The notes under the pieces are model-generated. The model was not told the DNA's origin. It did no database searches and saw nothing but the letters and a program-made list of their open reading frames with translations. From contig NZ_JAQTZU010000016.1 in NCBI RefSeq assembly GCF_028687615.1, positions 21,936 to 85,935 on the forward strand: DNA of 64,000 bases, given 5' to 3'. Below, piece by piece: positions 3,032 to 47,518 of this stretch; the first letter of the stretch is position 1, and each line of letters opens with the position of its first letter. Made by a program: the position numbers and the translations under genes. Origin of the DNA: Methylovulum sp. (GTDB taxonomy: Bacteria; Pseudomonadota; Gammaproteobacteria; Methylococcales; Methylomonadaceae).

Positions 3032-3066
3032 GATGTTTCCTCTCTGTGTTTTTTTTAGTTATTTAA

Positions 3067-3179
3067 GTCCACGAAAAACACGAAACACACGAAAAATTTA
3101 GGTCGGTAATCTTTAGTTGACACGCTGACAAGCCAACAGGCTACTGTTTTATTTCGTGTTTTTCGTGCATTTCGTGGAC
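3067..3179. repeat. Inverted repeat rich in TTTCGTG / CACGAAA
   Basis: The 155-bp spacer upstream of sqr holds GTCCACGAAA at one end and its complement TTTCGTGGAC at the other, with extra CACGAAA copies between. Related half-elements occur at about 31620-31654 and at 34245-34538. This looks like a dispersed intergenic repeat. It probably separates sqr from the upstream promoter. Confidence 0.65.
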
Positions 3180-3186
3180 AATTGCT

Positions 3187-18627: not shown

Positions 18628-18881
18628 GAAGATGCGCTATGACGAATTAAAGGTAAACCATAGATTTTATAGAAAATTGGCGATTTATTCTAAACATAAA
18701 TTCTAATTCTTTGCCGGCCCTACAAACCACCCGCTAAGAAAGACTTTTCAGGTTTTTAAAACCTGACCCGTTAGAGCGCGAAGCGAAAGACCGACCTGTA
18801 AAAATCAAATCATCCGTGCATCGCCAACAAATTATAGTAAACTGCCAAGCTTTTAAAACCCGCGCCGATTTGTAACCCGCC

Positions 18882-31500: not shown

Positions 31501-31720
31501 GATCACCAAAAACATAACAACCGCTGGTGATACGGTATTCGTTTTAAGCAGATCTGACGAGCATCGCCGAAATACACAAAAACGAGAGCGACATGGGCAA
31601 CCTGATTATTTTTATACGCCGTTACGTTTTCGGGTCTTTCGTGTATTTCGTGGACAACTGCTTAACATCTGAAGTGTTGGTAGTCTGTATAATCGTAAAT
31701 TTTTACCCAAAATAGGCGCA

Positions 31721-33597: not shown

Positions 33598-34239
33598 ATG
33601 TATAACTTTTTATCTTTCCAAATCCACGGTGGTGCAGATCATGGCAACGGCTTGCTGGATAGCCTGGTCGGCCTGTTGGCTTTTGTCGAAGGCCTCGCCA
33701 CGCAAAGCCCTGGGGGCCTGTTCAACACGATAATGCCAGGATTGTCGGCGATGGCGAATATCCATCCGCTATTGGTGCATTTTCCCATTGCCTTTTTGCT
33801 GGCTTTTTTTGTGCTGGATGTTGTGGCTGCTTTGGCAAAAAAATCGGCGTGGCGGACAGTTGCCAGTTGGTTTTTATATTTGGGCACCGTTGCCGCCGCC
33901 TTCACCGTACTGGCGGGATTTATCGCCGCCGAATCCGTCCCGCATGGCGGCAATGTCCATGAGATAATGGAACGCCATGAGCACTTCGGCATTTCGGTGT
34001 TATCTTTGGCAACGCTATTGTCGCTATGGCGGTTGAAAGCGGGCGAATCATTACGGGGAATTGCCAACGGCATGTTTCTGACCATTTCTGCGTTATTGTG
34101 CCTGCTGTTAAGTTTGGGTGCCGATTTGGGCGGATTGATGGTTTATCAATACGGTGTTGCCGTGCAAGCGGTGCCGGTTGTTGAAAATGGCGTGGGTCAT
34201 GAACATGGGCACGAGGCGCACGGGCATGCACATGAATGA
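33598..34239 (+). CDS. DUF2231 membrane protein with His-rich tail
   Basis: 213 residues. [27 protein letters not shown] marks the DUF2231 fold, followed by three more hydrophobic spans and the conserved [20 protein letters not shown] and [13 protein letters not shown]. The C-terminus [13 protein letters not shown] could bind metal. DUF2231 proteins may be haem-binding relatives of membrane cytochromes but the function is not established. The gene is bordered by repeat elements on both sides within the normally compact truA-trpF stretch. Confidence 0.75.
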
Positions 34240-34563
34240 GATTTGTCCACGAAAGGCACGAAAGGGTACTGGGTATTTATTTGGCGTCGGGGTGGGACGG
34301 GGTCGCCTCGGCACACCGCTACGCTGCTCTGTCCATAGACCACCACTCTTGTGGTGGCATCCATGCAGCAAGGCGTAAAGTGCCTACTGTTGGAACAAAC
34401 CCGCTCCGGCTTGCGTTACAAAGCGAAAAAAGCTAGGGGGACTATTTCAAGTTGCCGCTTATTTTTGCTCACGAAGGCGTTAGTGGTTTTTCTTGTGCCC
34501 CAGAGGGTATTCGTGCTTTTCGCTTCGCGCTCTACGGGTCGTGGACAATGCGTAACATCAGTT
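34240..34563. repeat. Mosaic of short palindromic modules
   Basis: The 386-bp gap before trpF starts GTCCACGAAAGGCACGAAAGG and its inverse TTCGTGC...TCGTGGAC appears near 34512-34543, so it began as a CACGAAA-type repeat. Within it lie CCACCACTCTTGTGGTGG (34340-34357), a unit close to the 23-bp IS3 insert (34372-34394), CTTGTGCCCCAGAGGGTAT (34492-34510) and an AGAGCGCGAAGCGAAA unit on the reverse strand (34516-34540). A lone CGTAACATCAG end follows. No gene is present. Confidence 0.65.
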
Positions 34564-34625
34564 CTTAATTTAACAGCCCTTAACTCTTTTAATCCCATCA
34601 TTTTTCTAAATTCCCATATCACTTT

Positions 34626-35285
34626 ATGCGAACTCGCGTTAAAATTTGCGGTTTTACCCGTGTCGAGGATGCCGTTGCCGCCGCCCGTTTGGGTGTTGAT
34701 GCGCTAGGTTTGGTGTTTTACCCGCCCAGCCCGCGCCATATCGACATTGCCCAAGCTGTCAACATCGTCAACGCCCTACCCGCCTTCACCACCGTGGTCG
34801 CTTTGTTTGTCGATGCCGGGGAAGTGCAGATACGCGAGGTGCTGGCGCAAGTGCCGATTGATTGCTTGCAGTTCCACGGTGAGGAAACGCCGGAGCAATG
34901 CCGAATGTATGGCAAACGTTATATCAAAGCCATCCGTATGCAGGACGGCGTGGATGTCCACCAACTGGCGGCGGCTTACCACGATGCCGACGGATTGTTG
35001 CTGGACGCCTACCACCCTAACGCCCAAGGCGGCACGGGTAGCCAGTTTGATTGGGGGCTGATTCCCCAAACTTGCGCGTTGCCGATTATTCTGGCGGGCG
35101 GTTTGGATGCCGCCAACGCCAAAGCCGCCGTGCAAACGGTCAGGCCCTATGCGCTGGATGTCAGCAGCGGCGTGGAGACCGGCAAAGGCATCAAAGACAC
35201 GCAAAAAATGTGTGCGTTTATAAAGAAAGTTACTGAAGGGGGGCAATTAATATACCCAATCAATAAGTTATTAATTGTTTCATAA
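34626..35285 (+). CDS. trpF: Phosphoribosylanthranilate isomerase
   Basis: 219 residues. It converts phosphoribosylanthranilate to CdRP in tryptophan synthesis. MRTRVKICGFTRVEDAVAA has the catalytic Cys (KICG). LQFHGEETPEQC and LLDAYHPNAQGGTG (catalytic Asp) and YALDVSSGVETGKGIKD are intact. The last residues, about YPINKLLIVS, come from the repeat element at 35268 onward, which also supplies the stop codon. Confidence 0.95.
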   Translation: MRTRVKICGFTRVEDAVAAARLGVDALGLVFYPPSPRHIDIAQAVNIVNALPAFTTVVALFVDAGEVQIREVLAQVPIDCLQFHGEETPEQCRMYGKRYIKAIRMQDGVDVHQLAAAYHDADGLLLDAYHPNAQGGTGSQFDWGLIPQTCALPIILAGGLDAANAKAAVQTVRPYALDVSSGVETGKGIKDTQKMCAFIKKVTEGGQLIYPINKLLIVS

Positions 35286-45877: not shown

Positions 45878-46266
45878 TTGAATTAGCTAAGCCTAGCCCG
45901 ACGGGGCGAATAAAGTGGCCCCCAAAACCCAGACAAAAAACACCTGTGTTAAGATAGAACTCAATTCGCACTCCAGCTGAACGGCGCCGTCCCGATTTTG
46001 TTGTACGGGTTCTGATGCCTCACCCGTATCCTTAAATTTATCCACAATCTTTGCACCGCCGCCGATAGCCGTTTTATAGACTTCATCGGGCGTTTTGTAA
46101 GCCAGTGATTGATGCCGGCGTTCCTGGTTATAGAATTGGAAGTACTGCGTCAATCCCATCAACAAGTCCGGCAGGTTGCCGTGCTGCTTTAAATACACTT
46201 CTTCATATTTCACGGTCCGCCACAAGCGTTCGACAAAAATATTATCCAATGCCCGGCCTCGCCCAT

Positions 46267-46313
46267 GACCCACAAGGATGTGGGGAATGCAGATATTGCA
46301 GGAGCAAATATCT
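46267..46313. repeat. Two adjacent short palindromes inserted in orfB
   Basis: GACCCACAAGGATGTGGGG (46267-46285) and the 23-bp palindrome AGATATTGCAGGAGCAAAT... (46291-46313) separate the codons for NNITISMD from those for GRALDNIF, which are adjacent in intact IS3 transposases. Each can fold on itself. Confidence 0.7.
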
Positions 46314-46492
46314 GTCCATGCTGATGGTGATGTTGTTCTTCAGTAACACACCGGTAAAGGCATCGCTGGTAAACTGGGCGCCTTGGTCGGTGTTGAAAAT
46401 GGCCGGTGTGCCATACAGCGTGATGGCCTCTTCCAAACAGTCCACGCAAAATCCGGCATCCATCGTATTCGACAGCCGCCATGACAGCACCT

Positions 46493-46515
46493 CGCCTAAA
46501 GCGCCTACTGTTGGT
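46493..46515 (+). repeat. 23-bp insertion module, copy 1
   Basis: The unit (core GCCTAAAGCGCCTACTGTTG) interrupts orfB between IIDWYSR and VLSWRLSNTMDAG. It is the exact reverse complement of the unit at 46803-46825, which sits at another break in the same transposase. A diverged relative lies at 34372-34394. Confidence 0.8.
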
Positions 46516-46708
46516 GCGGCTGTACCAGTCGATGATCGCGGCCAGATAAACAAATCCGCGCGGCAGCCGGATATAAGTGATGCCAGTGCTCCAGACCTGA
46601 TTGGGCCGGGTAATCTCAACGCCGGCAGGTAGGGGTAAACCTTGTGCTGCGGATGCGGTTTGCGGGTATTCGGGCCGGGGGACATGCCGACCAAGCCCAG
46701 TTTTTGCA

Positions 46709-46726
46709 CTTGTGCCCTGAGGGTAT
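46709..46726. repeat. 18-bp CTTGTGCCCTGAGGGTAT insertion
   Basis: It lies between the codons for RKRVQKL and QKLGLVGMSPG of orfB. It differs by one deletion and one base from CTTGTGCCCCAGAGGGTAT, the unit at 34492-34510 and the outer unit at 47029-47065. Confidence 0.7.
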
Positions 46727-46802
46727 GAGTTTCTGCACCCGCTTGCGGTTGACGCTATAGCCGCATTCACTCAGGTATTCCTTCATACGGCGTGAACCAT
46801 AA

Positions 46803-46825
46803 ACCAACAGTAGGCGCTTTAGGCG
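46803..46825 (-). repeat. 23-bp insertion module, copy 2 (inverted)
   Basis: Same unit as at 46493-46515 in the opposite orientation, with 23 of 23 bases complementary. It interrupts orfB between LLDEEYTR and YGSRRMKEYL. Confidence 0.8.
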
Positions 46826-47028
46826 ACGGGGGTCGCGTGTACTCTTCATCCAACAAGCGCAATAACACGAGCTCATCCTGATCCGGCGCTTTCAACAAAC
46901 GCTTGTTCTGCTCATAAACGACTGGACGTGTGACCTTAAGAAGCCTGCATTGCGTTGATAATGCAACCGCATCATTGGGTTCTATCCAACTCTGGCGTTC
47001 AGTTAAAGGCTGAGCCCAGACTTTTTTT

Positions 47029-47065
47029 CTTGTGCCCTTTATGCCCCAGAGGGTACAGAGGGTAT
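47029..47065. repeat. Nested pair of short insertion modules
   Basis: The 37-bp insert reads CTTGTGCCC, then TTTATGCCCCAGAGGGTA, then CAGAGGGTAT. Removing the middle 18 bp leaves CTTGTGCCCCAGAGGGTAT, identical to the unit at 34492-34510. A smaller unit has therefore gone into a larger one inside the IS3 relic. Confidence 0.75.
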
Positions 47066-47518
47066 AAGCCAATCCAGCTCCATATCCAACTGCCCAATCT
47101 TGGCGTATAACCGGTCAGGGCCGCTCTGTGCGTCGGCCACTTTGGGCCCTCGTTTACCTTCAAACAAGCTGCCGGCATTTTCCAGTAGCTCTTTTTTCCA
47201 TTGACTCACCTTCGGGTGTACCCCATGCCTTTGATCGCTTCTAGGGCAACCTTGGCTTTTTGGGTTCCCGTAAATACCTTGCGTTTGCTTTCACTCATTT
47301 TCTGTCTCAATTTTGGATCAGAGTATGGCTTAAACTACTGTCTGGATTTCGGGGTCCACTATACAGAGTATAACTCCAAATAATAGCCTAAAAAGTCAGT
47401 CAAATGACATGATCTGACCTTAGGCTATTTTGGAATTCTGTTGTTTTATCAAGGTTCGGCGGCTTCGTTTTAACGCAGTGGGTGATGCTTCGAAATAGTA
47501 GAGTGCGGGACTAAACAA

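Follow-up and report, generated by a model that had tools for sequence, protein, structure and literature searches.

The window analysed here is a stretch of 64,000 nucleotides (contig C42:21936-85935) from the 3.49-Mb genome of a methane-oxidising bacterium. Within it, a spacer at 34240-34563 is flanked by a gene for a DUF2231 membrane protein and by trpF. The original prediction described this spacer as a CACGAAA-type repeat split by small units, some of them relatives of inserts in an IS3-type transposase gene of the same window. The parts it listed were all found, at or a few bases from the expected positions (Table 1): arms of the repeat lie at both ends of the spacer, with three short sequences, i.e., U1 (CTTGTGCCCCAGAGGGTA, 18 nt), U2 (CGCCTAAAGCGCCTACTGTTGG, 22 nt) and U3 (CCCGTAGAGCGCGAAGCGA, 19 nt), as well as a 68-nt module, between or within them. 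The spacer copy of U2 is itself split by the 68-nt module. The relatives of the IS3 inserts proved to be the right part of U2 and U1, which have their counterparts at four positions in the IS3 gene. A CCAC/GTGG hairpin that had been listed as a unit is present, but it belongs to the 68-nt module.

Table 1. Positions of element A, the short units and associated features in the window (^ marks an insertion point)
Feature	Position	Strand	Remarks
Second U3 copy in the window, CCCGTTAGAGCGCGAAGCGA	18767..18786	+	adjoins CAGGTTTTTAAAACCTG palindrome
Element A copy, MITE-like	34242..34563	+	aligned with L002, L003, L004, L005, L010, L007, L006; inverted ends; absent from relatives' gap
Left CACGAAA arm, TTTGTCCACGAAAGGCACGAAAGG	34242..34265	+	without U3
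U2, left part CGCCT	34304..34308	+	inserted in GGGT^AACAAACCCG of element A
68-nt module	34309..34376	+	splits U2 at CGCCT^AAAG; includes CCACCACTCTTGTGGTGG hairpin, 34340-34357
U2, right part AAAGTGCCTACTGTTGG	34377..34393	+	
U1, CTTGTGCCCCAGAGGGTA	34492..34509	+	in T-run TTTTT^TTCGTG; all other aligned element A copies empty
U3, CCCGTAGAGCGCGAAGCGA	34520..34538	-	in right CACGA^AAA arm; right arms of L005, L006, L010 empty
Right outer terminal inverted repeat of element A, TGCGTAACATCAGTT	34549-34563		
IS3-type transposase gene	45911-47363		five U1/U2-type insertions, one nested in another
49-nt two-hairpin insert	46266..46314		absent from homologues L201, L204, L223, L215
U2	46493..46514	+	in ACCT^TGCGG; empty in L222, L201, L204, L223, L215
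U1, 17-nt variant CTTGTGCCCTGAGGGTA	46709..46725	+	in TTGCA^TGAG
U2, inverse orientation	46804..46825	-	in CATAAA^ACGGG
Nested pair	47029..47064	+	U1 (47029-47037 + 47056-47064) in T-run, split at CCC^CAGAGGG by U1b
U1b, 18-nt variant TTTATGCCCCAGAGGGTA	47038-47055		

Element A between DUF2231 and trpF

The spacer is an inserted copy of a ~320-bp repeat, designated element A, which the closest relatives lack at this position. Eight copies were aligned, the one in the window and seven more from the same genome. Terminal inverted repeats (TTAACTGATGTTACGCA / TGCGTAACATCAGTTAA) were found in L002 and L005, and it is by such repeats, present in several copies, that element A, the host of the units, fits among the MITEs. 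Intact left ends elsewhere read TTAACTGATGTTACGCAC..GTCCACGA; the window copy has the right outer repeat, is missing the left one, and contains TTGTCCACGA, inverted without mismatch over 10 nt (34243-34252/34539-34548). A short stand-alone palindromic repeat with the same arms as element A, GTCCACGAAAAACACGAAACACACGAAA...TTTCGTGTTTTTCGTGCATTTCGTGGAC, lies at 3066-3180, with a further half-copy in the vicinity of 31629-31655.

Across the eight copies, U1, the 68-nt module and, in either arm, U3 vary one at a time. U3 occupies the left arm in five copies, though not in the window or L007; in the right arm it is present in the window, L002, L003 and L004, and missing from L005, L006 and L010. U1 occurs in the window copy only, and the 68-nt module of the window copy is absent from L002-L005 and L007. 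No other copy has the full unit set of the window copy, the others carrying other subsets. A single larger element recurring intact would have spoken against separate units; a BLAST search with the spacer in the window's own genome gave no second whole copy, and 77 further partial matches covered different sub-ranges. The view that independent places share separate small units thus held, the units occurring in unrelated hosts with differing flanks and varying singly among element A copies.

U1-like sites (≤3 mismatches) were found twice in the window versus 0.04 expected, a count reached by 0/100 shuffles, and U2-like sites three times versus 0.00 expected. The spacer was also said to share AGAGCGCGAAGCGAAA with the region at 18765-18789, and exactly two occurrences were found in the window (18773-18788, plus strand; 34518-34533, minus strand). 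By itself the AGAGCGCG pair is not significant, with at least two matches in 20/100 shuffles (3-mismatch shuffle test); behind it lies the longer 19-mer, U3, for which the genome has 24 copies (≤3 mismatches) versus one for the reversed control pattern. Searches of Rfam returned no RNA family match at E≤1 for 34200-34640, and nothing but a tRNA for the whole window.

A comparison of the spacer between related strains, one unit at a time, had been proposed. In the four closest relatives with DUF2231 adjoining trpF in the available flank (G019, G006, G015, G013), the readable gap is short, extending ~100-130 nt past the stop codon, and does not contain the element; the presence of each unit was therefore read from paralogous copies and IS homologues instead of from strains. 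The trpF-proximal 40-50 nt are alike in the window (where they read TTTAATCCCATCATTTTTCTAAATTCCCATATCACTTTATG) and in these four relatives, which places the element upstream of them. In two other genera (L047, L054), different and unrelated large palindromic repeats occupy the DUF2231-trpF gap, which may thus be a recurrent landing place.

Units within transposase genes

The IS3-type gene was compared with L222 (95% identical, same genome) and with homologues in relatives (L201, L204, L223, L215). Filled and empty homologues differ by exactly 22, 17, 22 and 18+18 nt, with zero bases duplicated or lost; since L222 spans part of the gene only, the evidence for the later sites comes from the more distant homologues. 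The nesting of U1b in U1 was found at the identical position in two unrelated hosts, i.e., the window and L221. The 49-nt insert of the same gene forms two hairpin tips, ACAAGGATGT and GCAGGAGC, and an intergenic repeat of another genus (L047, genome G029) has similar tips, ACATGGATGT and GCAGGAGC, on different stems. Both sets of tips resemble CsrA/RsmA binding motifs, with mild motif enrichment. A reading of the 68-nt and 49-nt modules as GGA-loop (CsrA-like) elements was nonetheless set aside: motif counts were raised, but the hairpin test was unconvincing.

When followed by T, U1 has no stop in any of its six frames; as six codons, it would thus be tolerated in genes and carried along on IS copies. 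In frame, it lengthens transposases from several IS families (named by Pfam where matched) by six residues. Exact six-residue gaps against empty homologues were found for (i) ISAs1 (L271 versus L108, L064 and L277; L277 versus L222), (ii) IS3 (L348 versus L165, L302 and L167), (iii) IS110 (L263 versus L266), and (iv) a GDGAPWI-type transposase with no Pfam match (L152 versus L066). Two IS110 genes with a mere 46% identity (L263, L259) carry U1 at the same codon. Units of this kind can thus alter proteins. Also, at least seven copies of an rve-type IS transposase gene in the window's own genome contain an in-frame U1 (TNG-IPSGAQ-VVERFNGR; L082, L083, L096, L098, L101, L107, L109). This suggests that the U1-modified IS went on multiplying, although the loci were retrieved via U1 itself and the sample thus comprises filled copies.

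Target sites, copy number and distribution

U1, U2 and U3 are mobile and dispersed; their insertion is precise, occurs in both orientations at short sites for which they have a preference, and can also take place within another unit. The same 18-nt and 22-nt sequences, with the same ends, lie in transposase genes, in T-runs, within REP-like hairpins and within one another, the flanks being unrelated, and the same target has been used repeatedly in divergent genes. U1 sites were counted as distinct when more than 8 of 40 flanking bases differed. Of 103 such sites, 100 have C/T at position -2, 92 have T at +1 and 54 have A at -1, the commonest form being CA^TG. The 48 distinct U2 sites read G (38), C (32), G (29), T (39) ^ T (45), with GCGT^TGC favoured. 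At some U3 sites, an ambiguous 3-nt repeat (TCG) is present.

When the best hairpin near each junction was taken, U1 was inserted in its loop in 23/41 cases, versus 6.3 expected from same-motif positions nearby, with fewer than 23 independent events because many of these cases are one host repeat, GGCAATCCATGCCGG, that dominates the signal and whose filled copies are perhaps not all independent insertions. Approximately half of the U1 sites are without an obvious hairpin, and U2 displays no loop preference (5 versus 5.1 expected). The possibility that U1 is the solo end of a larger transposon was rejected, as the inverted U1 pairs inspected belong to host repeats, where they occupy the CACGAAA arms, themselves inverted.

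The units are scattered in many related and some unrelated bacteria. The window's own genome contains 47 copies of U1 (≤2 mismatches) and 38 of U2 (≤3 mismatches), the reversed pattern giving 0 in each case. Among 61 genomes (its own plus relatives), U1 (≤2 mismatches) was found in 22, all within its own family, and U2 (≤3 mismatches) in 27, with up to 95 copies (in G034). Exact U1 matches in species genomes, among the matches listed, were mainly from Methylococcales, with a few records labelled Ectothiorhodospiraceae, Sterolibacterium and Alphaproteobacteria. Across 369 genomes sampled from the Gammaproteobacteria, U2 (≤1 mismatch) was present in 16, from ~13 families and with up to 38 copies, and U1 (≤1 mismatch) in six; the three with an exact U1 copy were all U2-positive, which hints at machinery common to U1 and U2.

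Carriage by phages was considered and dismissed, since exact U1 and U2 were absent from 2.9 million viral contigs; the lone match was an exact U1b at 8672-8689 of L379 (IMGVR_UViG_3300045973_001484). In an Ectothiorhodospiraceae MAG (L272, NORP100), TACCCTCTGGGGCACTTGTGACCTTTAGGTTACTTGTGCCCCAGAGGGTA consists of U1-type arms around CTTGTGACCTTTAGGTTA, an 18-mer that resembles a variant of U1 whose 3-bp stem is different. Covariation in the U1 stem is not claimed: only two of 21 CTTGTG-N10-TA sites without CCC/GGG have a perfect alternative stem, both being CTTGTGACCTTTAGGTTA, which is too few.

Movement of the units and comparison with known systems

The spacer is very probably a mosaic of independently inserted mobile units, i.e., a genomic "nesting doll" in which a MITE-like repeat would have landed between DUF2231 and trpF. 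Element A would in turn bear the autonomous-looking U1, U2 and U3 along with the 68-nt module, each independently gained or lost. As the units are without coding capacity, we infer a recombinase acting on them in trans, which would recognise the ~20-nt sequence and a 4-7-nt target; a candidate enzyme was not found. U1 seemingly prefers to insert in exposed hairpin loops, which would point to a target that is single-stranded or cruciform; a single-strand target step, taken alone, is less likely than not.

Transposition of the units as single-stranded hairpins by HUH Y1 transposases of the IS200/IS605 or REP/RAYT type is unlikely. The small size, short adjacent motif, U1 loop preference and lack of target duplication would suit single-stranded DNA transposition, and five Y1_Tnp matches were found in the window's own genome. 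However, copy number is independent of Y1_Tnp: G003, G002 and G005 carry 30, 8 and 7 copies of U2, respectively, with zero Y1_Tnp matches, such that these carrier genomes do not contain the cognate transposase of a REP/RAYT system. Replication-strand bias is also absent, with 17/38 listed U2 copies in G019 and G029 codirectional with the fork (a hand count from U2 positions and dnaA, with the terminus assumed to lie opposite dnaA). Moreover, the GTAG/CGTC tag with its long stem is not found at the end of any unit; U2 carries GTAG internally, on the minus strand only, stems are 3-4 bp, and the hairpins formed by the units themselves are weak, with about -2 kcal/mol and no clear advantage over shuffles. 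REP/RAYT (Y1) transposition of the units is not supported.

Element A is a true repeat family, and the composite of U2 and the 68-nt module recurs in several hosts, as would be expected if one large repeat family had diverged and lost segments, with the "units" as leftovers of deletions. This is very improbable, however, given that the same units, with the same ends, occur at further positions with unrelated flanks, and that distant homologues lack them exactly. It is equally improbable that selection has maintained the units, or let them arise in place, as functional sites (terminators or sites of protein binding). A terminator-like pattern does overlap U1 (34495-34510) and U1 copies are near-identical, but terminator-like matches are not in excess (1 versus 0.7 in shuffles), whole units are precisely present or absent between homologues, and clean insertions lie within transposase coding sequence relative to empty homologues. 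An assembly or adapter artefact, as might be suspected from very short identical sequences in many draft MAGs, is next to impossible, since the units lie inside contigs, with a target preference and sequence variants, and occur in isolates from different projects (Methylovulum miyakonense HT12, Methylobacter marinus A45, Methylovulum psychrotolerans, Methylomonas fluvii).

The mosaic of mobile units might reflect a dedicated recombination system, found in several bacterial families, that puts fixed 18-22-nt sequences at short motifs (partly hairpin loops) without target duplication; we consider this conceivable, though rather doubtful. If true, it would constitute a transposition mode outside those of DDE, HUH, serine, tyrosine and reverse-transcriptase elements. 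To our knowledge, no explanation has been given for the movement of ~20-nt repeats since their description in cyanobacteria. A search for the enzyme by presence/absence is feasible here: there are at least two units with no relation to each other, with ~100 and 48 distinct junctions and with exact pairs of filled and empty homologues, and copy number ranges from 0 to ~95 per genome.

Several known systems bear comparison, and the literature searched gave no occurrence of the U1, U2 or U3 sequences. REP/REPIN sequences with RAYT (TnpA_REP) are likewise short, non-autonomous, mostly intergenic and present in many copies (PMC3116915, PMC3733652), whereas U1, U2 and U3 are inserted singly, genes included, and are without the long imperfect tagged stem. 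Rickettsia palindromic elements, of ~150 bp and open in coding frames, lie in frame in protein-coding genes (PMC10969869), as does U1, which is only 18 bp and, within genes, is mostly found in transposases. Unlike MITEs, the units have neither terminal inverted repeats nor a target-site duplication, and are several times smaller.

The closest known kind is that of the small dispersed repeats (SDRs) of cyanobacteria, reportedly described by Elhai et al. in 2008 (Genome Res 18:1484); the likeness drawn here is one of description. SDRs are ~20-nt non-coding dispersed repeats, presumed to be mobile (PMC4390886, PMC3116915), and for SDR5 a precise insertion point is reported, between nucleotides 3 and 4 of HIP1 (PMC4390886). 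U1, U2 and U3 are likewise dispersed, multicopy sequences of ~20 nt, inserted precisely at a short consensus without target duplication (U1 in CA^TG, U2 in GCGT^TGC). With its 18 nt, U1 falls under the 21-27 nt size range of SDRs. The present units also differ in their target and in belonging to Gammaproteobacteria, mainly Methylococcales; moreover, they are documented to lie in frame in many transposase families and to nest one inside another. Ultimately, U1, U2 and U3 behave like the "very small mobile repeats" that SDRs represent, yet with new sequences and in another lineage.
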